Shown here piece after piece: positions 8,354 to 29,348 of a DNA stretch of 41,074 nucleotides. The position numbers were made by a program, and so were the translations under genes. Position 1 is the first letter of the stretch. Each line of letters starts with the position of its first letter. The stretch lies in IMG/VR virus record IMGVR_UViG_3300027659_000075, positions 1 through 41,074 of that record; one strand, written 5' to 3'. Below the pieces are notes generated by a model, which was given only the letters and a program-made list of their open reading frames with translations, did no database searches and was not told the DNA's origin. The DNA is from a virus.

Positions 8354-11300
8354 ATGGTTGAACAAAATGCTGACGTTTCCCAATTGTTGGAAGCGTTAAG
8401 AAAGGTAAAACCTTTTCCACAATCTGCACCACCCCGCAGGACAAACTTGCAAGATTCAATTATTGCAAATAGGGATTACGCAATTGGGGCTATTGCGCAA
8501 GCCCCTACGTTGCGAGACAAAATTGACTCAATTAAGTCTTCGGGTGGTATCCCCAAAAACGGAACACCAAAATCTTTGTTGTTCAATAACCCAATTACAA
8601 AAACAATTTTTGGTGGTTTAAAAGTAATTGACACCCCACACAGAATGGTTGTGTCGGGTTTGCGAGAAGTGGTTGATGCTTTCGACAACGACCCCAACAC
8701 AAGAGCGTCTTTTGATGACTGGATTGGGCAAGTTGGAAAAGATGATTATGGTTTTGGTACCGCTTTTCCTGTTGCTGGTTGGGGTGGGCGAGTGCTTGGT
8801 TTGGTGGGAGATGTTATTACTGACCCCCTGTTTTGGGTTAGGCCGTACGGCGCTGGTGCAGGCAAGTTAGCAACAATTGGTGATGGCACTCCATTAAAAA
8901 CAGCATTGGGCAAAACTGCCATTGCAGGTGCGCCTGGGCGCAACGCATTGGCGGATTACGCAATAAGAATGGGTCGCTCGCCAGAAGAAGTTGCCGCAAT
9001 TGGTTACAAGGGCAGGTTGGGTGCAACTCCAGAATTTGCAAAAATGGCTGGTTTAGATAAAGCTGGTTTGTACATTGCTGGAACAAAAATTAAATTACCT
9101 TTTACTGGGCCAATAGCTGACGCATTGTCCTTTGGTGCTTTTGGTGTACGTTCTACTTTTGTTAATTCCAAGGTTGGTGGAGCCCTACATCGTTTAGTTA
9201 CAACTGGTGATGATTACATAAAAAATTTAAAAATTGGCGTGTCAACGGGAAGATTGGATGCCCCAAAAGCACAAGAAGCAATTCAATTGCTGAATATGGA
9301 AACACGCAAACGTGCGGTGTCTGGTGTTGCAAGAAATACATTTATTTCTGGAATTAAAAATGTTGTTGAAGGTCCAGAATATAATGAATACGGTAAAAGT
9401 GTTTATCAAATTATGGACCCAAAAGAGGGTTTTGCTCGAGCACCAAAAAGCGCTCAAGAAAAAGCTTATGCCGTAAAAATACAAAATATTCTTAGGTCAG
9501 CAATAGGCGATGTTAAAACACGTTTAAAAGATGTTGACCCAGAAGCAAAAGTTGGAGAATTTGTGGAATATTGGCCACACATGACTTCTGAAGCCGGAAT
9601 TAATTACATGGCTGTGCCATCCAATCCATACGCCGAAGCAACATTTAAATTTTTAAAAGAAGATTTGTTTGACAAAGATGGTTCATTCAAAACAAGAAAA
9701 TTAAAACCTTCTTCTGACGGAAAAGCTAATTGGTTTGGACACGCTCTTACGCAGGATGACATAGACAAGGGAATTGACAGGCTCAATCAACTTGCAAGAG
9801 ATGGTGGGTTTGTTGGAGATTTTTTTGAAACAGATGTTGCTGCTGTTCTTTCAAGATATGGAAAATTCTATGGAGAACAAGTTGGAAAAATTGATTACGC
9901 GGATTCTTTGCTTAAATCAAACATTGGAAGATTAAGAACAACTCATTCGGTTATTGATAATGAATATTTTGACGAATTTGCAAATCAAACCGCTGAGGTG
10001 AGCGGTTCTGTTGCCAGAGCCACCACAGAACTTATTGACGGAATAAACTCGGCCACAAAAGAAATAGAGCGAATAGTCGGCACCGAAACTAAGTCAATTG
10101 GGGCCAAGGCTGGCACCGAAACCATTGAAAGATTAACCAAACAACAAAAACAAGTTGCTGGTTCAGTTCAGGGAATATTAAAACAACTTGATTCCTTAAA
10201 AACAAACGTAAATCAAAGAGTTGAAAAATTTGAATCCTTGTTTGATTTTGATGACCCTAGCGACCCAACAAAATTAATGAAGGCCGTATTTGAAGATTAT
10301 AAAAAATCTTCAAATACAATAGATAAATTTATTGAACGTTCTGTAAAAGAATTTGAAGGCATTAATGAAGCGGCATTAGGCGACATTTTATTTCCAAGTC
10401 AAGAAAGCAATATTCTAGCAGACACATTAAAGGGCAAAAAAACAATAAGCGACGAAGATGCTTTGAAAGTTGCTCAAAAATACGCAAAACCGGTAACGGA
10501 TTTATTGTTGCCTTTAAAAAAATTTCAAGACGACCTAAACAGAATCAACGCTGATTATGAATTGCTTGAACGTCGTTTTAAATTAACGCAAATGGTGGGC
10601 AACGAATTTGCCGAAGTTGTTAACAACATTCTTAATCGTTCAATTTTTGAAACAGGAACATTGATTGAAAGAGATGGCAAGTTGGTTGCAAACAATTTGC
10701 CAATGGAGCTAGAAGAAGTAGCAAAATTGTTAATGCCTTCATCTAATGAAGGTCGGATTCTTTTAGGTTTTCAAACAGACGACAAAATGGGCGATTTTGC
10801 AATTAAGTATTTTGAAACAGCAGAAGGAAAAAATTTAAAATCAATTATTGACCCAGAAGATTTATTTAGAAAAGCAGATTTAAGAAAAAAGGGTTCCGAA
10901 ACCGTTGTTGATTTCGATGAGTTTAGGTCTGTGTTGGCAACGTCAAATCCATCTGTGTCGGATGTATTAACCCTTCGTCGCGTAATTTCTAATTACGCGA
11001 TGAGAGACATTAAAAAGTATGGTTCGGTTGCCAATTTTCCGCCATCGCTGAGAACTAAATTTGATGTAACATTAGCAAAACTAACTCAATTAAATGAGTT
11101 TCAAGACAAGGTTGAAAAAGTAGTTAGAACAGCTAACGGCAATCCTGATTTTATTAAAAATTTTGACAAACTTGACGAAGCATTGGAAGAAATTGGTCAA
11201 AGAATTGTTCAAACAACAGCAAAAATAACTGCTTTAACGGAAACAAGCACCTATGCAAGGTTTGCAGACGAATTTACTTCTCTTGCAAATTCAAGAAGTG

Positions 11301-14300
11301 GTTCTATTGCCCCAAGAGACTTGGATGAATTGCGCTCTCTTTCAAACAATATTACCAAAGGCAAACAGTTGTATGATGACTTTATTGAAGATTTTGTTAA
11401 AATTTATGACGACCAACAAGAAATTGGACTTACGCTTTCTTGGGAACAACTTAGAAATGCTTTTAATAGTCAATTTTTAGCAGAAGGCATTTCTCTTAAC
11501 GCAAGAGAAGCAGATGCTGGGGAATTTTTTATCAACCTAAGCAAAGAACTTGAAGATGATATTTCTAACTCTGAAATGTTTACTCGATTCCAACAAGTTA
11601 TTCAAGACGCAAAAGAATTAATTGCCCCAAGAAAACCAATTGTAAAAAAGGGTCAAGTTCCAATTTTACCAGACCAAAGTTTTGTGCAAAGCCAATATGC
11701 TTTGCAACAAAACATTTCTTTGACGCAACAGGAGTTAACAGAACTTAAATCGTTTGTTGGAAAATTAGACAAAGATTTAGCCAAACAAAAAGATTTAGTA
11801 AAACAACGTAAAACGTTGTTTTCCAAGGCTGGGGTAAAACAAGCTGATTTTGACCACATTATTGATTCCACTTCAAGTTGGGAGTTTGGCACTAAAACCA
11901 GCACAAGAGGGCAGAGAGCAAGTGTTGGACAGGTTATTTTAGAAACCCAAGATGCGGCTATTTCGTATTACATTCATTCTGAAACTACAAAATTTATGGA
12001 AGCCGTAACTGAAAAATTTGCCCCATTGGGTTATGTTCCAAATGAAAGATTTTCGCTTTATGCGGTAAATCAACTGGGCAAACAATTGGGTCAAGAAGCT
12101 AATTATGCAGTTACAAAAATGAATATTGCTAAAACAAAAATGGAACAAATACAAAATGCTGTTCGAAATGCTGCTCCCGACAATCAAGTAAGAGTTTTTA
12201 ATACCGAAATGGAAAAAGCATTTTTAAACGACGACGAAGATGGTTCGTTTGATTTTCTTTTTGGACAGTTAAAACAATTGTTGCCATCATCAAAACAAGA
12301 ACCGCAACGCGCAGCCAACACCGAAGCAGGTCGGGTTCTTAGGGCGGATATTGTTAGGGATATTGTTGAGGAATTTAGAAATAGTCGTCAACCCGTTCGT
12401 GATGCACAAACGGGCAAATTAATATCTGGGCCAACTGGTTATGTTCCAAAAGGAAAACCTGGAGATTTCACCGGTCAACAAACATCATTGAGTGATGTTT
12501 ATGACCAAGACAAATCTTTGATGGATTGGGTTGGTTCAATAACCGACGAAACAACAAGGAATCCAAATACCCGCATTGATTATCTGTCAAGGTCAAAAAT
12601 TACAGACAAAGATGTTTTGGCTGCCGCTGACGTACCAACACAAATGAGCCCTGGGGTAAGACCAGAATTCGAAACATTGGAAGATGCTTTAGCTGCTGGA
12701 GTTTCCGAAAATGAATTTAACGCAATGTATCGAACCCCGGAAGCAACGAGGGTTGCTACGGAAGAAGAATTAATAAACGCTTTACGAAACAGGCTTGAGC
12801 GAACTTCAATATCTAAATTGTTAGCAGACAATAAAAATTTAGCAAGCAAATATCAAGCACGTTGGGATAAAATTGTTGAAGATTTTAAACCTACTATCAG
12901 TAAGACAAAACGCATATCTGCAAAAAGAGCTGCTGCTATTAAATTTGGGCCAAATGTAAAATTAACAATTCCTAAATATTTTAGAAATGCTTTTAACCCC
13001 AATGCCACCCCACGCGATGTTCAAACATTTTTTGTTAATGTTTTTGGTGGTGTTGAAAACATACCAGGTGGCGATTTTTCAGTAACCAAAATTCGTGGTG
13101 GGAAAATTGTTAAAGCACCAGCTGGACAGGTTTACAAAAAAGAATTATCAGAAAATGCCTCTTATGTAAATGCAAGAATTGCGGCTGCGCAAAAACGCAG
13201 CACGCAGTTTTCTTTAATGCAAGATTCTTTGTCCGACCCCAAATCTGTGTTGGAAAATCCTCTTAATATTGCATTGGGGCCTACTGGTCACGCAATGATG
13301 CTTCGAGAAATGGCTTCTTCAATTAAGAAACAAATTGAATTATCTACCCAAACAAGAGAAATCCAAAAAGGTTTATTAGCCAAAAAACAAAAAAGAATGG
13401 GTCTTTACTATTCTAGAAAATATGGCGAAGAACTTTGGTCAACATTGCTCAAAAATTCTTACAACCCCAACACAAAACTATTGGATATTATCCAGGATAT
13501 AAAAGCTGGAAAAATTTCCGTAACTCTTAAAAAACAAGTTGAACAATTAGAGGAAACTCTTGCTGGTTTGGGGGACCAAGAGGTTACTGGCGCGTTGGCT
13601 AAACAAAAACAATTAATTACCGAATTAAAGTCCTTTGAAACAGCGCAAAGAAAATTGACAACACTAAAAACCCAAATTGACAATTTAACAATGGAGCCAA
13701 TTGAAGTTGTTGCTAAACAAGAACAAAATTTTAATTCTTGGTTAAATGAAGTTGCTCGAATTAATGGCAACGAAGTTCTAAACGAATTTGGACAACCAAT
13801 TTGGTCTTATGAGTCCGGCACCTACATGTTTGATAAGTCTTTGGAAAAACAAATTAACCAGAGATTCAACAACGCTAATGTTCAATTGTACGACACAGAG
13901 ATTTTAGATTCAAACGCAATCATGCAATCGGGCGCATTAAGAATGCGCCGAACTGGCTATAAGTCAAACAAATCTTCTGCAAGATTTGTTCAAAGCGACT
14001 TAATGAAAAGAATACAACAAGGCGAAATTAAAGCCGTCAACGTTGATGGCGCCGAATATGGAACCACATTTTCTGTTTCTTTTGGTACTGACAGTATTGA
14101 GATTGTTCTACCGCCATCAAGCCCACTACTTGACATAAACGATGCAGCACGAGAAACTGTGACGGCTTACGGTCGTCAAGAACTTGCCAAAGTTCTTGGC
14201 GACAGAATTTACGGAAGCAACAGAGCTCTGGGCGCACCTGGATTAGATTTTGCAAACGAAATACAAATTTCTGTAGTTCCAAATAAAGATTACATATCTT

Positions 14301-17300
14301 CTCTCGAAAAGGGAATGCGTGAAGGAAATGTTTCTTTTATTAAAATTAAAAAAAGAATTAATTATGGGGAATATTTGTCCCCAACCAACATGCACGCAGT
14401 TGTGCCAGATGGTGCATTTAGTTCAACTGTTCGTTCTTTTAACGCTCGTGATTATGCCGTAACATCTCCACTAAGAACGGCCATTGATGCAAACGGTTTG
14501 CCAGTAAACGACATTACTTTTACTCCTTCTGAGTGGCGTGCTCTATTCCCGACACAGGAGGCAAGAAATCCTTTGGTTGTGAGAAATTTGCGAGCTTCGG
14601 ATATGGCTGCAGCAAAACGATTGGAAAAAAGATTGGGACAAATTCCTGCGGAATTGTCGCAATTGGAACAAAGGTTTAAAAGAAGGTTGGTTTCGCCTAC
14701 CGCACATGCTAAACAAAGAAAAAAATTAAATCTTGAATTAATTCAATCTGAATCTTTGTTAAACGATTTAGAGCAGAGCATACGCATGTATGATGACGAA
14801 CTGCGCGCACCACAAACGCGCATAACGGCGATGAATAAATTGCGCAGTTTTTATGAAGGATTTCCTAATTTGGATAAAGCAAAAGATTGGGTAAACGGAC
14901 AAATTAGAAACGGTCAAAAATTAAATATTGCAAATATTGAGCCAAGACCAGACGACGCTTTGTTGCGTCGAGAAATTATTAATTCAAATTGGGATAATTC
15001 TGATTATGGAAAACACATACGTCAAAAAGAGCAATTAGAAAAACTACTGACTGAAGAATTTGACAAAACCTATCCATTGGTTGCCCAGGAAAGAGATGTG
15101 TTAAGTTACCACGACTCTTTGGTGGATGAGGCAATACAGTTGGAAAAACGATTTGCTGCTGTTGACGTGCCTGCAATGATGGAAAAAAGAACAAGATTCC
15201 AAGAACAGCTGCGGGAGTCTGGTTTTAATTTTGATGCCTTTGCTGCTCCTGGCGATGCAAAAAGAACAATCTATGAAAAAATACGAACTGAAGCAGAACA
15301 ATTGTTTGCCGGGATTCCAGCACAAACTCAAATTGACAATTTTGGAAAAACTGCTGATTTTTATATAACAAACCAAATTCTTGATACTTTTGGCGGTGAA
15401 GCACAAATTGATAATTATGTGCTTGAAAAACTTACTGAAATGTTTGGTAGAGAAGGCGCTGCAAAAATGATGTTGCAAACAGAGTTTGACACAGCAAGCA
15501 CAGTTGCTTTTGCTGACTACGCAGACAATATAGCAAAGAGAGCCGAAGCCAATGTTGCCGAACAAATGCGACAATTACAGCCAATTGATTTTCAATTTAA
15601 AACGGCAATTGCTGGAAATAATGTTGAAATTATAGACCCAGTTACTAAAGAAATTTTTCAAATTCGGCAAGGCGAAGAACTGGATGCGTTAAGGGTTATT
15701 CGGGCCACTAAAACAGCAGACCTAAATGACATGATTAATGCAATGGGCAATTTGCAAACGCAGGTTGCTTTTGACCTTTCTAAGATAATTAAAAGATTAA
15801 GACCGGGGTATATAGAGCAACTGGACAAATATAGAAAAACATTAAGAACATTAAGCGAATATGCCGATAATGAGGAAGGTTTAATTTTTGTGCCAAGAAA
15901 CTTGGGCATGCTTGATGAGCCAATTTCACTGAGGGGTCCCGCAACAGGCACTCCTGGTGTTCGTGAAGGTTTGTCTGACGCTACATATGCTCGTTTGTTT
16001 GGCGACGTAAAACAACCCAAAGATGTTCGTGATGCTTTGGTTCGCAAAATAGAAATGCAAACCGAAACAGAACAAATTGAAAATTTGTTCAAAGACATAA
16101 ATAGCCTTGAAGCAAAATACGCAACAAAGCTTGGCGCAAAAACTAAAATTGACGAACAGTTGAGTACTCTTAACCTTACAATAAAAAAACTGGAAGCATC
16201 CAAGAATAGAATTAATAATTTGCCCAAATTAGCAAACAATGCTACGCAACAAGAAATTGATGAAGCTACTGAAATTATTGATGAATCTGTTGCTTTAATT
16301 GCTCAAATTCGTTCTGAGGCAAATATGGGAGCAGAATCTACTGGGTTTATCCCACGAGAATTGCGCAAGGTGATGTTGGACCTTTCCAATAAACGAGCAA
16401 ATTATTCTAAGGCTTTGCTTGATTCAGAAAACTTAGATTTTGCAGCAGAGGGAATTGTTGCGGATTTTGGAACAAACAACCTGCCAACAAAACAAATATT
16501 GGAAGAATTTGATAACGGTTGGGCTCAATTAAGTTCTGCTTTCCCATCCATTTATGTGCCAGAAAGCGTTGCAGAAATATTTAACAATGTGCACAGATTG
16601 CAAGACCCAGCAATTGTTATTGCAATGCAACGAGGGCTTGGAACTTACAATAAATTTTTCAAAACATATGCAACTCTTAGCCCTGGTTTTCACGTAAGAA
16701 ACTCTTACAACAATATATTTGTACATTTGGCTGGCGGGGAAGGTTTTAAATGGATTCCAGAAGCATTGGGTGTTATTAAGAAATGGGAAATTGCTCAAAG
16801 CAATAAAACCACATGGGAAGAATTTATTGCCGGGTTGTCGCCAGAGCAATCACGCCGAGCGTTGATTGCTCGAGATTCTGTTGTCGCTTCTGGTGACGGT
16901 TTGTATGACTCTGTAAACGCCGACCTTGCTTTTGGAAGTAAATTAACAAACTGGAAACTTCCGCAGTTGAGCAAAAGGGCTGGGCATTGGTCGGATTATG
17001 TATCTAGATTTACTTATGCTTATAGCGCTGCGGCAAATGGTGGAGAATTTTTGGATGTAACCGCAAGGCTTCAAAAGTATTTTATTGACTACTCAACAAA
17101 ATCAAACCTAGACAAAGTAATGACCCAGATTGTTCCTTTTTGGATGTTCGCCTCAAGAAACTTTCCATTGCATTTGCAAAATGTTTACCATAACCCAAGG
17201 GTTTATCAGGGCTATAGGGCAATTAGGCAGAACCTGTCTGAAAAAGACAACGAACAAAACAATGACGTTGTGCCGGCTTGGTTGCGTGAATCGGGAGCTT

Positions 17301-17824
17301 GGAAGCTCCCCATGGTTGGCAATTGGTACATGACACCAGACTTGGGGTTCATGCGAATTCAAACAGAAGTAAATAGATTACAAGACCCAAAACGGTTCTT
17401 GGCTGACGTAACACCAGCCTTAAGACTTCCGGTAGAGCTTGCTGGAGATAGAAGATTTTTTGCAAACAAAAAATTTAGCAAAGTTCCAATTGAGGCCAAA
17501 GAGGGAACAGCTCTCAATGTTTTGCAACCCTTGTTGCAGGCGTTAGGTTATGGCCAAACTGGACCAGATGGTAGACAATTCGTTAGCGACAAAGCTAGTT
17601 ACGGACTCATGAATGCTTTGCCGTTCTTGGGTCAAGCAGAACGTTTGTCGGCCACCACATCGCCTAACACGGGGGACGCTAGTCCAAATAGTTTGTTGGG
17701 TTATTTAGGTTTGCCTGTACGACAAAACACTCCACAAATGCAAATGGGAGAATTGAATGCTCAGAAACTTGCAATGCAGGAAGCCCTTGCGGCCTATAAC
17801 GCCGTGAACAGACCACAGGGATGA
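8354..17824 (+). CDS. Giant (3,156-residue) virion/ejection protein, large polyvalent type
   Basis: This one gene takes up about 23% of the genome. The N-terminal 150 residues contain the GWGGRVLGLVGDVITDPLFW segment (about 136-155), seen in large internal/polyvalent phage proteins, and EYWPHMTSEAGINYM follows near residue 400. About 2,000 residues of Lys/Gln/Glu-rich helical and coiled-coil sequence come next, interrupted by short beta-rich islands (about 1530-1600 and 2000-2090). The C-terminal 400 residues resemble the LPD38-like terminal region of phage large polyvalent proteins: LSPGFHVRNSYNNIF (about 2776), a segment with RAGHWSDYVSRFTYAY, then QIVPFWMFASRNFPLHLQN. I found no transglycosylase, protease or ADP-ribosyltransferase motif. 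It probably forms the internal core or ejected conduit. It follows the previous gene directly and overlaps the endolysin by four bases. Confidence 0.7.
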   Translation: MVEQNADVSQLLEALRKVKPFPQSAPPRRTNLQDSIIANRDYAIGAIAQAPTLRDKIDSIKSSGGIPKNGTPKSLLFNNPITKTIFGGLKVIDTPHRMVVSGLREVVDAFDNDPNTRASFDDWIGQVGKDDYGFGTAFPVAGWGGRVLGLVGDVITDPLFWVRPYGAGAGKLATIGDGTPLKTALGKTAIAGAPGRNALADYAIRMGRSPEEVAAIGYKGRLGATPEFAKMAGLDKAGLYIAGTKIKLPFTGPIADALSFGAFGVRSTFVNSKVGGALHRLVTTGDDYIKNLKIGVSTGRLDAPKAQEAIQLLNMETRKRAVSGVARNTFISGIKNVVEGPEYNEYGKSVYQIMDPKEGFARAPKSAQEKAYAVKIQNILRSAIGDVKTRLKDVDPEAKVGEFVEYWPHMTSEAGINYMAVPSNPYAEATFKFLKEDLFDKDGSFKTRKLKPSSDGKANWFGHALTQDDIDKGIDRLNQLARDGGFVGDFFETDVAAVLSRYGKFYGEQVGKIDYADSLLKSNIGRLRTTHSVIDNEYFDEFANQTAEVSGSVARATTELIDGINSATKEIERIVGTETKSIGAKAGTETIERLTKQQKQVAGSVQGILKQLDSLKTNVNQRVEKFESLFDFDDPSDPTKLMKAVFEDYKKSSNTIDKFIERSVKEFEGINEAALGDILFPSQESNILADTLKGKKTISDEDALKVAQKYAKPVTDLLLPLKKFQDDLNRINADYELLERRFKLTQMVGNEFAEVVNNILNRSIFETGTLIERDGKLVANNLPMELEEVAKLLMPSSNEGRILLGFQTDDKMGDFAIKYFETAEGKNLKSIIDPEDLFRKADLRKKGSETVVDFDEFRSVLATSNPSVSDVLTLRRVISNYAMRDIKKYGSVANFPPSLRTKFDVTLAKLTQLNEFQDKVEKVVRTANGNPDFIKNFDKLDEALEEIGQRIVQTTAKITALTETSTYARFADEFTSLANSRSGSIAPRDLDELRSLSNNITKGKQLYDDFIEDFVKIYDDQQEIGLTLSWEQLRNAFNSQFLAEGISLNAREADAGEFFINLSKELEDDISNSEMFTRFQQVIQDAKELIAPRKPIVKKGQVPILPDQSFVQSQYALQQNISLTQQELTELKSFVGKLDKDLAKQKDLVKQRKTLFSKAGVKQADFDHIIDSTSSWEFGTKTSTRGQRASVGQVILETQDAAISYYIHSETTKFMEAVTEKFAPLGYVPNERFSLYAVNQLGKQLGQEANYAVTKMNIAKTKMEQIQNAVRNAAPDNQVRVFNTEMEKAFLNDDEDGSFDFLFGQLKQLLPSSKQEPQRAANTEAGRVLRADIVRDIVEEFRNSRQPVRDAQTGKLISGPTGYVPKGKPGDFTGQQTSLSDVYDQDKSLMDWVGSITDETTRNPNTRIDYLSRSKITDKDVLAAADVPTQMSPGVRPEFETLEDALAAGVSENEFNAMYRTPEATRVATEEELINALRNRLERTSISKLLADNKNLASKYQARWDKIVEDFKPTISKTKRISAKRAAAIKFGPNVKLTIPKYFRNAFNPNATPRDVQTFFVNVFGGVENIPGGDFSVTKIRGGKIVKAPAGQVYKKELSENASYVNARIAAAQKRSTQFSLMQDSLSDPKSVLENPLNIALGPTGHAMMLREMASSIKKQIELSTQTREIQKGLLAKKQKRMGLYYSRKYGEELWSTLLKNSYNPNTKLLDIIQDIKAGKISVTLKKQVEQLEETLAGLGDQEVTGALAKQKQLITELKSFETAQRKLTTLKTQIDNLTMEPIEVVAKQEQNFNSWLNEVARINGNEVLNEFGQPIWSYESGTYMFDKSLEKQINQRFNNANVQLYDTEILDSNAIMQSGALRMRRTGYKSNKSSARFVQSDLMKRIQQGEIKAVNVDGAEYGTTFSVSFGTDSIEIVLPPSSPLLDINDAARETVTAYGRQELAKVLGDRIYGSNRALGAPGLDFANEIQISVVPNKDYISSLEKGMREGNVSFIKIKKRINYGEYLSPTNMHAVVPDGAFSSTVRSFNARDYAVTSPLRTAIDANGLPVNDITFTPSEWRALFPTQEARNPLVVRNLRASDMAAAKRLEKRLGQIPAELSQLEQRFKRRLVSPTAHAKQRKKLNLELIQSESLLNDLEQSIRMYDDELRAPQTRITAMNKLRSFYEGFPNLDKAKDWVNGQIRNGQKLNIANIEPRPDDALLRREIINSNWDNSDYGKHIRQKEQLEKLLTEEFDKTYPLVAQERDVLSYHDSLVDEAIQLEKRFAAVDVPAMMEKRTRFQEQLRESGFNFDAFAAPGDAKRTIYEKIRTEAEQLFAGIPAQTQIDNFGKTADFYITNQILDTFGGEAQIDNYVLEKLTEMFGREGAAKMMLQTEFDTASTVAFADYADNIAKRAEANVAEQMRQLQPIDFQFKTAIAGNNVEIIDPVTKEIFQIRQGEELDALRVIRATKTADLNDMINAMGNLQTQVAFDLSKIIKRLRPGYIEQLDKYRKTLRTLSEYADNEEGLIFVPRNLGMLDEPISLRGPATGTPGVREGLSDATYARLFGDVKQPKDVRDALVRKIEMQTETEQIENLFKDINSLEAKYATKLGAKTKIDEQLSTLNLTIKKLEASKNRINNLPKLANNATQQEIDEATEIIDESVALIAQIRSEANMGAESTGFIPRELRKVMLDLSNKRANYSKALLDSENLDFAAEGIVADFGTNNLPTKQILEEFDNGWAQLSSAFPSIYVPESVAEIFNNVHRLQDPAIVIAMQRGLGTYNKFFKTYATLSPGFHVRNSYNNIFVHLAGGEGFKWIPEALGVIKKWEIAQSNKTTWEEFIAGLSPEQSRRALIARDSVVASGDGLYDSVNADLAFGSKLTNWKLPQLSKRAGHWSDYVSRFTYAYSAAANGGEFLDVTARLQKYFIDYSTKSNLDKVMTQIVPFWMFASRNFPLHLQNVYHNPRVYQGYRAIRQNLSEKDNEQNNDVVPAWLRESGAWKLPMVGNWYMTPDLGFMRIQTEVNRLQDPKRFLADVTPALRLPVELAGDRRFFANKKFSKVPIEAKEGTALNVLQPLLQALGYGQTGPDGRQFVSDKASYGLMNALPFLGQAERLSATTSPNTGDASPNSLLGYLGLPVRQNTPQMQMGELNAQKLAMQEALAAYNAVNRPQG

Positions 17825-19054: not shown

Positions 19055-19217
19055 GTTTTTTTTTCTTGTTGTGAACGTACAAACAATTTGTTTGTAAACC
19101 GTTTTCAAGAACTCCCTGACCAACATCAATCGGTCCATAATGTTTCTCCAATATTGCTGCAATTTCGGTTGGCGTAACGGGCATTTCAAATCCAATCACT
19201 AGCTGACTCGTTCGCAT
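19044..19217 (-). CDS. 57-residue hypothetical protein
   Basis: A short gene with a strong AGGAGAG five to ten bases before its ATG. The product reads MRTSQLVIGFEMPVTPTEI… and ends in a Lys-rich tail coded by an A-rich stretch (HNKKKKHVK). It overlaps the end of the HTH-DUF1599 gene by 32 bases and the start of the next gene by 11. The good ribosome site and neat packing make it convincing. Function unknown; the first half looks like a compact alpha/beta unit. Confidence 0.65.
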   Translation of the reverse strand: MRTSQLVIGFEMPVTPTEIAAILEKHYGPIDVGQGVLENGLQTNCLYVHNKKKKHVK

Positions 19218-20037
19218 AATTCTCTCCTAATTCCAAATGAAATGTTTCGTCGTTGAGCATTAAAGCTATTACGCAATAACCGACTATGTCCCGTAGCGTA
19301 TCAAGCAACGATTCGTTTTGTGCTTTAAATTTTTTGGATTTAAGATTGATGAGTCGTTCAACCTTGTCAGACAAACGCACAAGTACGCCTTTGAGCCCAA
19401 AGGCCGTTATGTTGCCGTGTCCGTAGTCGTGCTGTTTGGATGCCAACAAGGTGCACATCTTGCCGGAATCCCAAGCGTTGTGCATACGCAATTCTTGAAT
19501 TGCTTCAATGCCCATTTCTGTCCATAATAAAGAAACAGGAATGTCGTCTTGGTCAAAAAGACAAACTCGAGCAGACTGAATTAATTTTTGTAGTTTTTCT
19601 GGAAGAATTTCTTGTTCCTCTGTTGCGAATGACGCAATGTGCATAACCCATTGGCTTGCAGATTGTTCCCATGTGTTAACCACTCTGACCTTCTTTCTGA
19701 TTAGCGGGTGCATTGTTAATAGTTGTTGTAGTTTAGCATAAGCATTGTTCTTGAGTCGCCAAGCGTGTGGCTTGGAAACGCCAAGGCGTTTACCAAGCTG
19801 TTCATAAGAAAGAAACTCGCTGTTGACTGCATTTACAATAAATTGGTCCTGTTCATCGAGTTGCTCAATACACATTGCTACGGCTTCGCGCAAAGGTTGT
19901 AGTTCTTCCACCGACTCCTCAATCACGTCGGATACGGATAACATCAACGCCTCCATAGGCGTTTGTGGGCGTTGTCTACTTAGGTAGGTTGATGAAAAGA
20001 CGTAATTGTCTTGGGGGATGTCATTCTTGGACATCAT
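19186..20037 (-). CDS. HTH (sigma region 4-like) protein fused to DUF1599 domain
   Basis: This 283-residue protein joins two recognisable parts. Residues about 45-110 contain a helix-turn-helix resembling sigma-70 region 4 (LDEQDQFIVNAV…, then LSYEQLGKRLGVSKPHAWRL). The C-terminal about 110 residues match the nucleotide-modification-associated domain 1 (DUF1599) pattern: HDYGHGNITAFGLKGVLVRL, SDKVERLINL, NESLLDTLRDIVGYCVIALM. DUF1599 proteins occur in phages and have been linked to modified-base metabolism; its reaction is not established. The fusion could couple DNA or transcription control to nucleotide chemistry. ATG 20037 (or 20034) overlaps the end of the upstream nuclease gene; neither has a clear ribosome site. 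Confidence 0.72.
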   Translation of the reverse strand: MMSKNDIPQDNYVFSSTYLSRQRPQTPMEALMLSVSDVIEESVEELQPLREAVAMCIEQLDEQDQFIVNAVNSEFLSYEQLGKRLGVSKPHAWRLKNNAYAKLQQLLTMHPLIRKKVRVVNTWEQSASQWVMHIASFATEEQEILPEKLQKLIQSARVCLFDQDDIPVSLLWTEMGIEAIQELRMHNAWDSGKMCTLLASKQHDYGHGNITAFGLKGVLVRLSDKVERLINLKSKKFKAQNESLLDTLRDIVGYCVIALMLNDETFHLELGENYANESASDWI

Positions 20038-20449
20038 CGTATGCGGGGTCATAGAGGAGTTGCGACACTTCCTCTGGCAACAACAAATAACCCTTCGCTG
20101 GATTATTTGTGCCTTCCGCAAACAATCTAATTCTTGATTTCGGTAACATTTCTATATAGCGCTTTAATCTTTCCGTGGATACAACCACCATTGCCTGATT
20201 CATAGTGTACACATAAACCCACCACTCTGCTTCGGTTATCATAATGCCTGATGGTTTCCACCCGTGTTTTCTAGGGTTTTGAGCTGTTTCAACAACCATT
20301 TTGCCATTGCGATACCGGTCAGACTTAACTTCAAACGAACCATTAACAATACCTTGAAGAAAACTCTTAACTTGGTCTTCGCCCTGTTTGCCAAACTCCA
20401 AATCTTTTTTGAAGTTTGGTTTAGGAATGTCCCATCTAGATTCTTTCAT
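20021..20449 (-). CDS. PD-(D/E)XK-type nuclease
   Basis: A 142-residue protein with the core of a restriction-endonuclease-like fold: a helix with GKQGEDQVKSFL (E24), then a strand with FEVKSDRYRNGKMVVE (E40, K42, D44), the ExK signature, and further core strands (ITEAEWWVYVYTM). It lies between RusA and the HTH-DUF1599 gene in the replication/recombination block and probably acts on branched or host DNA. It is too small to carry extra specificity domains. The start has no ideal ribosome site and overlaps the RusA stop by four bases (ATGA). Confidence 0.7.
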   Translation of the reverse strand: MKESRWDIPKPNFKKDLEFGKQGEDQVKSFLQGIVNGSFEVKSDRYRNGKMVVETAQNPRKHGWKPSGIMITEAEWWVYVYTMNQAMVVVSTERLKRYIEMLPKSRIRLFAEGTNNPAKGYLLLPEEVSQLLYDPAYDDVQE

Positions 20450-24142: not shown

Positions 24143-24655
24143 CTACGCCTGCCACGGTAGCCACCCATCTCCATGCTCTCTATCGGCATAGAGCCATATC
24201 AGCCTTGCTGATAGCAGGTTGGTTCGTGGGTGAAGCAGGTCGCCACACTGCTCCAGCACCCCGAAAGCCTGCAAGTACCCCTGCGGATACCATTGTGAGG
24301 GCTCACACCAATAGCCATTGACCTGTGCCAGCCCATACGAGCCCCCGTTGGGGTCTTGGTTTGAGTAGGACATCGTGAAGCACCTAGATTCGCGATGAAT
24401 GACATAGTCAAGCATCTCTAAATCTTCTTCACGCCAACCCACGCTTACTGCTATCTGAGCCCATTGTGGGCACAGCATGTTATGGGGCAGTGTTATTGCC
24501 TCGTCGTGCTTGATTGGTGTTATCCCAACCCGTTCTTCTGTTGATTCGTTTGGAGGTAGAGGAACAGGGTTGTTGTAGTTTGGTGGCCGTGGTGGGGTAA
24601 GCAACCAGCCCACTACCACCACGATAACTGTAACTAACGCTAATCGTTTGACCAT
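24143..24655 (-). CDS. Membrane-anchored lytic transglycosylase (lysozyme-like)
   Basis: A 170-residue protein with an N-terminal hydrophobic anchor (LALVTVIVVVVGWLL, about 5-19), a Pro-rich linker (20-45) and a lysozyme-like domain. The catalytic Glu is in VIHRESRCF (E89) and the family GLxQ motif is GSYGLAQVNGYW (105-116). Cysteines at about 62, 92, 117 and 137 suggest disulfides, so the domain works outside the membrane. It would cut peptidoglycan glycan strands, but it lies in the minus-strand unit, away from the late endolysin. It might help DNA entry, wall remodelling or lysis. It overlaps the upstream gene by 16 bases. Confidence 0.82.
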   Translation of the reverse strand: MVKRLALVTVIVVVVGWLLTPPRPPNYNNPVPLPPNESTEERVGITPIKHDEAITLPHNMLCPQWAQIAVSVGWREEDLEMLDYVIHRESRCFTMSYSNQDPNGGSYGLAQVNGYWCEPSQWYPQGYLQAFGVLEQCGDLLHPRTNLLSARLIWLYADREHGDGWLPWQA

Positions 24656-26609: not shown

Positions 26610-26990
26610 TTACAAATCGCTGTTGTTGTTTGATTTGGATTCAATTATTGCTGTTACTCGCTCAACTGTTTCATTGGTGACACCAACGGTGGCATCGCCA
26701 ACAAGACGCATTAAACGACTGCTGAAGCGTTCATCATTGAGCAGGTTGCTAATGACTCCACTTCTTGCATAATCAACCACCCGTGAGTAGTCGAGATTTG
26801 TTGCCACATATTGGGCAATGTGGTTGTAGTCAACCGTCTCCAATATTTGACTTCTTACCTGTGAAACCAATTCTGATGCTATTTGGCTCGTCAATAGTTG
26901 TGTAACCAATTCACGAACTTCCACCATCATTTTGGAATAGGAATCGGGGTCTAATTCAAATGTGGTTGCGCCCCTGGTTGTCAATCTCAT
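26610..26990 (-). CDS. Hypothetical helical protein
   Basis: A 126-residue protein built mainly of helices with regular spacing (MMVEVRELVTQLLTSQIASE, about 21-40; VSQVRSQILETVDYNHIAQY, about 43-62; VGVTNETVERVTAIIESK at the end). The repeating V-DY-x-IA/V-Y pattern (ETVDYNHIAQYVA and TNLDYSRVVDYA) looks like a short internal repeat. Its ATG overlaps the stop of the upstream 43-residue gene and uses a GGAGGT inside that gene. Confidence 0.6.
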   Translation of the reverse strand: MRLTTRGATTFELDPDSYSKMMVEVRELVTQLLTSQIASELVSQVRSQILETVDYNHIAQYVATNLDYSRVVDYARSGVISNLLNDERFSSRLMRLVGDATVGVTNETVERVTAIIESKSNNNSDL

Positions 26991-27118
26991 TTCTTACCAC
27001 CTCCTGCCAGTTTGATTTCGTATGCAGTTAATTCGGCTAGTGTTTTTTCCCAGCCGATATCCCTGCGTTTAACTTTGCGTCGCATCTTTTTGCGACGCTT
27101 GTGATTCAACTTGCTCAT
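26987..27118 (-). CDS. 43-residue Arg/Lys-rich protein
   Basis: A short gene with four-base overlaps on both sides. The N-terminal half is extremely basic (NHKRRKKMRRKVKRRD, about 5-20), followed by an amphipathic helix (TLAELTAYEIKLAGG). This suggests a nucleic-acid-binding or ribosome-associated peptide. Its 3' end contains the GGAGG used by the next gene. Confidence 0.6.
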   Translation of the reverse strand: MSKLNHKRRKKMRRKVKRRDIGWEKTLAELTAYEIKLAGGGKK

Positions 27119-28116
27119 TTAGTTACCTCCTCGAATGTTGGTGTGAATGATTGATGGTATTCGTAGCCATCCCAACACTTGCATAAGCCAGTTTCGGTGC
27201 ACACGAGACACGCTCTGCAATGACCACAATGCGTGTGGCTTGGTTCTAGTGGGTCAACTGGTGTGATTGCACCACAGTTGATGCACTCAACAGATGCGTA
27301 GTCCCAACCGTTGAGAGTTGTGAACTTGAGAACCTGCGCAGTCCATTCGGGATGCGCATACAGTTCGTCAAGAAGATAGGACTCAACTTCGGCTGTGTCT
27401 GAATAACGAGCGTTCTCGTCGTCGTCATAACCGTAGTCGTAATCATCCCACCCCCATGCACCTGCGCTGGATTTAGATGTGGATTCCGTCTTGGTGGTCC
27501 AACCACCAGAGTCATACATACTGCCATGCGCATAACTGGAATAACTCGCATAGACAATTGGTTTGTATGAACTATTGGAATACCAAACTCCATCTTGACC
27601 CCAATGACCATCTTTCTCATTGACGATGTAGTAGTCATACTTGGTGGCAGGATTGACGGTCATGATGACCAACTTGCTACCAGTAGACCACGCTTCTAGT
27701 TCTTTGAAGAACTCATCGTCGTCAAGACGCTCAACGCCACCACAATGCGGAAGCACAATCTCTGCGAACAAGCGAGTATCGGAACGATTCTCGCCAACAG
27801 GCACAGCGACTGGCAACATACCGTTGTGACCAAGAACGGACTGCGTGTCTTCACCGATATAGAACGGATGGCAGTTGTCAGTATTGACTGTGCCGTGCGT
27901 TGCTATGCGAAAGTGAAACATCGCAGCACCGTGTTGAACTTTGCGAGCCTCTAAGAAACGAGTCCATAGATGTTCGAAGTTCATATCGTGGTCAGTCAGG
28001 ATTGTGTCGCCTGCGTGAATAGCGAAACCGAAACCATCGGGATTGCTGATTGCTGCACGACGAGCATGCTCATAACTGATTGTTAAGCCCTTAGGCATGA
28101 ATGTTAATAAACACAT
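27115..28116 (-). CDS. Class II glutamine amidotransferase with C-terminal zinc cluster
   Basis: A 333-residue Ntn-hydrolase-type protein. The catalytic nucleophile is Cys2 right after the initiator Met (MCLLTFMPKG); NPDGFGFAIHAG (25-36), FHFRIATHGTVNTDNCHPF (67-85) and GHNG (96-99) are the glutamine-binding and oxyanion elements of GATase class II. The core is followed by a Tyr/Ser/Gly-rich linker (about 180-240) and a Cys/His-rich tail (CINCG, THCGHCRACLVC, GLCKCW) that probably binds zinc. It would release ammonia from glutamine, or act as an aminoacyl transferase, for the amidoligase encoded just upstream (TAAATG junction). Confidence 0.8.
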   Translation of the reverse strand: MCLLTFMPKGLTISYEHARRAAISNPDGFGFAIHAGDTILTDHDMNFEHLWTRFLEARKVQHGAAMFHFRIATHGTVNTDNCHPFYIGEDTQSVLGHNGMLPVAVPVGENRSDTRLFAEIVLPHCGGVERLDDDEFFKELEAWSTGSKLVIMTVNPATKYDYYIVNEKDGHWGQDGVWYSNSSYKPIVYASYSSYAHGSMYDSGGWTTKTESTSKSSAGAWGWDDYDYGYDDDENARYSDTAEVESYLLDELYAHPEWTAQVLKFTTLNGWDYASVECINCGAITPVDPLEPSHTHCGHCRACLVCTETGLCKCWDGYEYHQSFTPTFEEVTK

Positions 28117-29238
28117 TTATTCTTCTCCATCTACCGAAGTTTCGGTTGGTGTGTGTGGGTCAACGAATACGCCACGGCTTACTGCACGAGCAATAAACTG
28201 TGAATACTTGTCTCGGTCTGTAGTTGCGAACTCACCGAGCGACTGAAAGGATGCGAGCGCATTCTCTTTGACAACTTGGTTGTATGTAACTTGGTCTGTG
28301 TAGTCAAACAGACATTGCACGAACTCAATAGACGCTTGAACTGTCTCTGGTCGCAATGACGGTCTGAAGAAACGCAACTCAAGTGTGTGCCGATTGTTGC
28401 GATTGAGTGCGAGATAGCGCTCATTCGCATACGGCGCAATTGGATTGCCTTTCTTGGTGCGACCTTTTGCAATTTCTGCAAGCGTGGGTGTTACATACAC
28501 GCTATTGCCGTTGTCGTCATCGCCGTCATAGGCAGTTCCGAGGAATGAATCACGGTCAAACTTTGACCAATGTGAATCACGACCTGCGAAGTGCTTGATG
28601 GTGGCAATGTGCAGTTCTTGCGCATTGCGTCGTATCTCAGACGCACGAGACACATCGCTGCCGTAGATGAACCACATGAACTTGTGCAGGTGTGCTTCAT
28701 TCAAGAACGCATTACGCGAAATATGAATGTGCAAACCACAAGTGCTGGTAGTCCAAGCACGGAAGCCCTTGCGACGCAAGCGTGAGAGACCATCCCACAA
28801 AGGTTCTGCGTGGTTCTTGACATAACCGAAACTCATCGGATGCGTAACAATCTCGAAGCCGTTGTTGAGTGAACCGTCATGCTTACAATAGACCAAGCCA
28901 TTGCACATATCGGTAATTAACTCAGCGCCCTCGTTTGGATGCGCACTGATTGCTTCTGTCTCTATCTCAATGCCGAAGTAAATCTTTGGCATTGAACCAA
29001 TGAGAACCTGCTGTGAAGACTTGCGACCATTGTCGTTGAAGAACAACGGCGATGGGCGATAGTCATGGTCTGAAATATATTCAGAGTCTGACTCTCGTTC
29101 TTCTTCTTCCCTGCGATACTCGTAACAACCATCACAAAGATTTTCGCTGTTGTAACAGTTCTCGTATCCCTCCTCAATGTCAGTGCCACAGGCGTCGCAC
29201 TCTAGATAGGAAAGTTCTTCTTCTGATTCGGTGGGCAT
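28117..29238 (-). CDS. Amidoligase (carboxylate-amine ligase) with N-terminal zinc ribbon
   Basis: A 373-residue protein. The N-terminus has a zinc ribbon (CDAC at 14-17, CDGC at 35-38) followed by a Glu-rich stretch (43-55). The amidoligase core shows YFGIEIETEA (87-96), a CKHDGSL turn (118-124), GFEIVTHPMS, the metal/ATP segment CGLHIHISR (167-175) and RYLALN…NRHTLELRFFR (274-292), as in the glutamine-synthetase-like amidoligase family. Such enzymes make amide or peptide-type bonds using ATP. Coupled expression with a GATase II is a known association of this family, with cell-wall or peptide modification proposed. Its leader is unusually structured (29239-29348). Confidence 0.82.
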   Translation of the reverse strand: MPTESEEELSYLECDACGTDIEEGYENCYNSENLCDGCYEYRREEEERESDSEYISDHDYRPSPLFFNDNGRKSSQQVLIGSMPKIYFGIEIETEAISAHPNEGAELITDMCNGLVYCKHDGSLNNGFEIVTHPMSFGYVKNHAEPLWDGLSRLRRKGFRAWTTSTCGLHIHISRNAFLNEAHLHKFMWFIYGSDVSRASEIRRNAQELHIATIKHFAGRDSHWSKFDRDSFLGTAYDGDDDNGNSVYVTPTLAEIAKGRTKKGNPIAPYANERYLALNRNNRHTLELRFFRPSLRPETVQASIEFVQCLFDYTDQVTYNQVVKENALASFQSLGEFATTDRDKYSQFIARAVSRGVFVDPHTPTETSVDGEE

Positions 29239-29348
29239 AAAGCCAACCCCTTTCTGTTTGTGTTTGTGAACTGAGAGATGTCTCTCAGTTTCTACTCTTA
29301 TGAGTATATCGCATCACACGAGTGTTTCCACCCGTGGAATGCAGATAC
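29239..29348 (-). promoter_or_regulatory. Structured leader of the amidoligase gene
   Basis: This spacer holds two structures. At 29269-29290 is a perfect palindrome with 10-bp arms (AACTGAGAGA / TCTCTCAGTT) around a TG centre. At 29302-29350 a long interrupted hairpin pairs GAGTAT with ATACTC, GCAT with ATGC and CACG with CGTG. On the minus strand the order is long hairpin, palindrome, an unstructured CACAAACACAAACA stretch, an AAAGGGG ribosome site and the ATG. The palindrome shares its 14-bp core with two others near 31187 and 31296. Confidence 0.6.

Follow-up and report, generated by a model that had tools for sequence, protein, structure and literature searches.

The window, by which is meant the whole stretch of DNA that was analysed (41,074 bases), is the IMG/VR virus contig IMGVR_UViG_3300027659_000075. 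Its plus strand carries genes for a terminase and a P22-like portal, as well as one ORF of 3156 aa (8354-17824) within the 41 kb of the contig. The minus strand encodes DnaB, an AEP primase, a PD-(D/E)XK nuclease and WhiB, the last of which indicates that the host is probably an actinobacterium; on this strand a 311-aa ORF (19186-20121) joins a sigma-70 region 4-like domain to a DUF1599 domain (nucleotide modification associated). The locus considered here comprises the following features:

28117-29238, minus strand: amidoligase, an Amidoligase_2 protein of 373 aa, assigned by Pfam, PHROG, predicted fold and catalytic residues
29125-29199, minus strand: putative N-terminal zinc ribbon of the amidoligase, C14-x2-C17-x17-C35-x2-C38, at least 90% conserved in the amidoligase alignment
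29065-29124, minus strand: acidic linker of the amidoligase, about residues 39-58, RREEEERESDSEYISD, read from the sequence and lying in a low-confidence stretch of the model
28291-28992, minus strand: catalytic domain of the amidoligase, about residues 83-316, with ExE, D, E, HxH, N and ExR motifs
27115-28116, minus strand: class II glutamine amidotransferase (GATase) of 333 aa with nucleophile Cys2, assigned by GATase_4, phrog_25883 and a GlmS-like fold
27547-28116, minus strand: Ntn-hydrolase glutaminase domain of the GATase, residues 1-190, the high-confidence region of its model
27175-27285, minus strand: C-terminal eight-Cys module of the GATase (C278 to C314), from the GATase alignment
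26987-27118, minus strand: strongly basic 43-aa peptide, MSKLNHKRRKKMRRKVKRRDIGWEKTLAELTAYEIKLAGGGKK, whose start overlaps the GATase stop (ATGA)
26610-26990, minus strand: 126-aa protein of the same operon, whose start overlaps the stop of the 43-aa peptide (ATGA)

The first-pass annotation had described the amidoligase and GATase genes as adjoining and coupled, and the coordinates and strand agree with this: the TAA stop of the amidoligase abuts the ATG of the GATase with no gap (...GAAGAATAAATGTGT...), and GGAGAA stands just 5' of that ATG. Measured against close relatives, the dN/dS of the two genes is 0.17-0.22, so that both are under purifying selection. The 43-aa peptide, for which a Pfam search gave no match, is conserved in the related loci L002, L004 and L005 (dN/dS 0.09 against L004); it is a possible lineage-specific partner of the pair and possibly binds nucleic acid. 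The 126-aa protein, which a Pfam search places in no family, is found after the GATase in the same three loci. Just upstream of the amidoligase gene lies an inverted repeat, ACTGAGAGA-CA-TCTCTCAGT (29270-29289), a possible regulatory site.

The amidoligase is a predicted ATP-dependent carboxylate-amine ligase with a glutamine-synthetase-like fold. It matches Amidoligase_2 (PF12224) with 26.9 bits (E 5e-6), above the curated cut-off of 22 bits, and PHROG families of unknown function match both proteins of the pair far better than Pfam does (phrog_16683 for the amidoligase, E 5e-31, the match beginning at residue 13; phrog_25883 for the GATase, E 5e-37). A search of PDB sequences gave no significant match. 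Its predicted model (pTM 0.70) adopts the glutamine-synthetase-like fold, with Z of 8-10 to YbdK, glutamine synthetases, Dop and PafA; YbdK ranks first, yet many other structures fall within 1 Z of it, and GmaS (gamma-glutamylmethylamide synthetase) and PafA are among the highest-ranking Foldseek matches. Residues E91, E93, D121, E129, H170, H172, R274, N279, E287 and R289 are invariant in 28 aligned amidoligases, and the proposed placement in Amidoligase_2 is upheld by the profile score, the fold and these active-site positions.

The GATase matches GATase_4 with 32.5 bits (E 5.5e-8; cut-off 23 bits), and its modelled domain resembles GlmS, EgtC and PurF (Z 13-14.5; GlmS 14.5, EgtC 13.7). C2 (after M1), R70, N98, G99 and D113 are invariant in 23 aligned sequences. 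R70, N98-G99 and D113 match the glutamine-binding residues of class II GATases, which means that the substrate of the enzyme has a free gamma-glutamyl group. The complete pocket, the Ntn fold and the profile score bear out the earlier assignment to class II with a Cys2 nucleophile, and the catalytic residues, whose loss would have spoken against the assignments, are retained throughout the 28 amidoligases and 23 GATases aligned.

Both proteins carry cysteine patterns that suggest zinc binding, and these modules are conserved in distant relatives; the corresponding parts of both models are of low confidence. The tail of the GATase reads C278-x2-C281-x15-C297-x2-C300-x2-C303-x2-C306-x5-C312-x-C314, four of its cysteines being invariant and four conserved at 90% or more in the GATase alignment, and it probably forms two putative zinc sites. 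The modules do sit at opposite ends of the two partners, as first annotated, with an N-terminal ribbon on one and a C-terminal cluster on the other; the cluster had been called Cys/His-rich, and its conserved positions are Cys, not His. Nor are the modules a peculiarity of this phage, for a large subfamily typically has them, and the amidoligase of the window is an unusually short version within it. Among viral relatives, 66 of 71 scored amidoligases have 6-9 CxxC motifs before the catalytic domain (2-3 in the other 5), with as many as four tandem ribbons (e.g., L013) against one in the window, and 59 viral sequences have five CxxC/CxC motifs in the GATase tail. Phage Marvin has both modules; phage ctgrD200 has the amidoligase zinc module only.

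In bacterial loci at least five CxxC motifs are present in 68 of 73 scored amidoligases, and the GATase tail has at most one CxxC/CxC motif in 51 of 58 scored proteins; in Clostridia the amidoligases keep their ribbons and most GATases have no Cys-rich tail. The modules are therefore separable, which argues against obligatory mutual docking, and the suggestion that they dock the partners on each other is not supported, since clostridial ribbons persist where the GATase tail is missing.

The association of the two genes themselves is strict. The GATase lies directly downstream of the amidoligase in 75 of 80 viral loci, the other five stopping at a contig edge, and the two proteins diverge in step (r 0.94 in 41 non-redundant loci, with none of 2000 permutations as high), a correlation to which shared phage ancestry contributes. 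In a less biased test, seeded with the terminase of related phages and covering 24 loci with right-side sequence, two phages had both genes, 22 had neither and none had one alone, with the proviso that contigs may be incomplete; the same proviso applies to a whole-contig search of 10 of the 22 pair-negative phages, which recovered neither gene. This co-occurrence across viral loci supports the functional coupling that had been supposed. The bacteria with the pair are Clostridia, Actinobacteria, Ignavibacteria and a Phycisphaerales MAG, most of their loci having the GATase near the amidoligase, and of the 54 bacterial loci with enough sequence behind the GATase, 24 encode a serine recombinase there, no more than 1.5 kb away and in the same orientation, an arrangement that looks like a small mobile cassette. 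Taken together, the zinc-type amidoligase and GATase are a mobile two-gene unit that is gained and lost as a whole.

Further small genes accompany the pair in some relatives. In one locus the pair is preceded, at a distance of about 0.6 kb, by a second amidoligase-like ORF (238 aa; L005:4508-5221). Proteins of about 57-83 aa that end in N(A/R)G overlap the GATase stop (L008:9787-9999 and relatives); they occur in 23 relatives, their C-terminal Gly is nearly invariant, and searches of Pfam and PHROG gave no match. The idea that they are a ubiquitin-like general substrate was rejected, given that a member in L208 occurs without the pair, that one ends in NRGER and that the window has none.

Since an intact glutamine pocket adjoins an ATP-dependent ligase, the simplest reading of the pair is a two-subunit amide synthase. 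The amidoligase and GATase would form one glutamine-dependent amide-forming enzyme, in which Cys2 of the GATase would hydrolyse glutamine and hand the ammonia to the amidoligase, and the latter would use ATP to activate a carboxylate (as an acyl phosphate, the chemistry of glutamine synthetase) and then amidate it. The zinc ribbon or ribbons of the amidoligase, together with the eight-Cys GATase tail of the actinophage branch, would grip a macromolecular target and not each other. The likeliest target would be a host peptide carboxylate, either C-terminal or on a side chain; the D-Glu or meso-DAP of the peptidoglycan stem peptide leads the candidates, and the phage might benefit from a wall altered during infection, for example by the exclusion of other phages. 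The joint enzyme is supported by the predicted folds, the sets of catalytic residues, the strict co-occurrence and the zinc-type Cys patterns, from which we infer the subunit contact, the ammonia transfer, the target and the benefit alike. The chemistry, a GATase serving an ATP-dependent carboxylate-amine ligase, is judged somewhat probable; the fuller reading, in which the ribbons hold a host carboxylate and peptidoglycan leads the candidates, is an even call; and peptidoglycan as the target, taken alone, is doubtful.

The proposal of peptidoglycan as the substrate originates with Iyer et al. (2009), as relayed by later papers (PMC5498523; PMC10580990). A wall target sits uneasily with the presence of the pair in bacteria with very different walls. 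Zinc ribbons are, moreover, unusual in wall-precursor enzymes. The first-pass annotation had also drawn support for the wall from a membrane-anchored transglycosylase in the same minus-strand unit (24143-24655), a protein with a weak SLT_3 match below the cut-off, encoded 2.5 kb from the pair with several genes between. That argument was rejected, because an SLT homologue is found in 14 of the 22 pair-negative phages from the terminase search (WhiB in 10), so that the link is not specific. All 48 loci found in a search seeded with SLT did have the pair, but they form a biased set made up of the closest relatives only; the SLT gene is part of the phage backbone and lies outside the amidoligase-GATase system.

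The main chemical rival to the amide synthase, raised by the fold that EgtC shares with the GATase, is a gamma-glutamyl ligase coupled with a hydrolase. EgtC is a gamma-glutamyl amide hydrolase and donates no ammonia, and the match of the predicted GATase fold to it (Z 13.7) counts against an ammonia donor. The amidoligase would here join glutamate or another amino acid to a host amine, and the GATase-fold hydrolase would edit or remove it. The position of EgtC among the top fold matches of the GATase, that of GmaS near the top of the amidoligase matches, and the GATase of phage C75C1, which continues into a GGCT-like domain within one protein, are all consistent with such a cycle; however, no GGCT was found in the zinc-type phages searched, and strict pairing on one transcript is easier to square with a joint reaction than with two that oppose each other, for which reasons the cycle is considered unlikely.

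As arrays of ribbons usually bind macromolecules, the main rival target is a protein or RNA of the host. The ribbons would bind a host protein, a tRNA or the ribosome, and the pair would amidate or conjugate it and so block host functions or defence. Tandem arrays of up to four ribbons before the catalytic domain are typical of macromolecule binding, the fold matches PafA and Dop modify proteins, and the pair is mobile, coming and going as a unit like conflict genes. No target gene, however, is co-inherited across the distribution, and membership of a known defence family was rejected, the families searched giving no match; modification of protein or RNA has perhaps one chance in several. A similarly low probability attaches to a more general form, a ribbon-guided mobile system of phages and bacterial elements that amidates or conjugates a carboxylate on host protein or RNA, with the number of ribbons setting the target.

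Two further explanations fare far worse. That a modified phage base receives an amino acid or amide from the pair, a reading to which the DUF1599 domain encoded at 19186-20121 might lend some colour, is highly improbable, given that ThyX is absent from the window and 13 relatives (for which reason a ThyX-linked modification was rejected), that TET/JBP or a base transferase is absent among the proteins scanned, and that the pair on bacterial chromosomes has no conserved DNA-modification gene alongside. Equally remote is a small-metabolite enzyme that tunes host glutamine and glutamate pools. Discussions of auxiliary metabolic genes have included phages with genes like these (PMC10580990; PMC10945688), but an enzyme for a free small substrate would not be expected to have zinc-type modules conserved on both of its proteins.

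The pairing as such is already known, and the zinc-bearing two-gene form is a widespread variant of it, of which no description was found among titles on amidoligases and zinc ribbons, a survey outside which Iyer et al. (2009) and the Marvin paper lie. Pairs have been known since 2009, and in the literature surveyed no demonstrated substrate was found for those of phages. Here the pair comprises just two genes, brings its own binding module, is gained and lost as a unit, and occurs both in bacterial genomes and in culturable phages of M. smegmatis (the Marvin cluster); the question of the substrate is therefore testable.

As for known systems, GatD is a class I-type GATase. In MurT-GatD, whose GatD structure has been reported (PMC5871853), a ligase-GATase pair is established to amidate peptidoglycan carboxylates (PMC3267633), and the pair of the window would work likewise, amidating a carboxylate with glutamine and ATP; the two systems are nevertheless not homologous, MurT being a relative of Mur ligases (PMC3267633). 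The pairing of amidoligase and GATase in phages dates, according to later papers, to Iyer et al. (2009) (PMC5498523; PMC10580990; PMC11318856). The cassettes of phiEco32, LUZ24, tf, RIO-1 and PSA-HP1 encode an amidoligase and a class II GATase together, as the window does, and those of the phiEco32/LUZ24 type add GGCT, an ATP-grasp enzyme and a second ligase (PMC5498523; ATP-grasp also PMC3890496). The window differs from them in its zinc modules and in having no GGCT (cyclotransferase), neither PF06094 nor PF13772 giving a match in the window and six relatives; no ATP-grasp protein was found among the minus-strand proteins scanned, a scan that omitted some small ORFs. Phage C75C1 (L089:4001-4897) has neither zinc module, its class II GATase domain being followed by the GGCT-like domain. 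In the OM43 phages MEP401 and MEP402 (PMC10580990) the amidoligase likewise adjoins the GATase, but the Cys motif of MEP402 is internal only and its GATase has no Cys tail. Clostridial and actinobacterial loci resemble the window in having zinc ribbons before the amidoligase domain and an adjoining GATase; clostridial GATases, unlike that of the window, have no Cys tail, and a serine recombinase often lies behind the pair. The Marvin-cluster mycobacteriophages (Marvin, Gattaca and MosMoris) share with the window neighbouring amidoligase and GATase genes (gp105/gp106), the N-terminal zinc ribbon and the C-terminal Cys cluster, at identities of 27% (amidoligase) and 41% (GATase). Their genes, whose annotation goes no further than glutamine amidotransferase or hypothetical, are separated by 79 nt where those of the window abut, and their amidoligase bears an additional C-terminal region.
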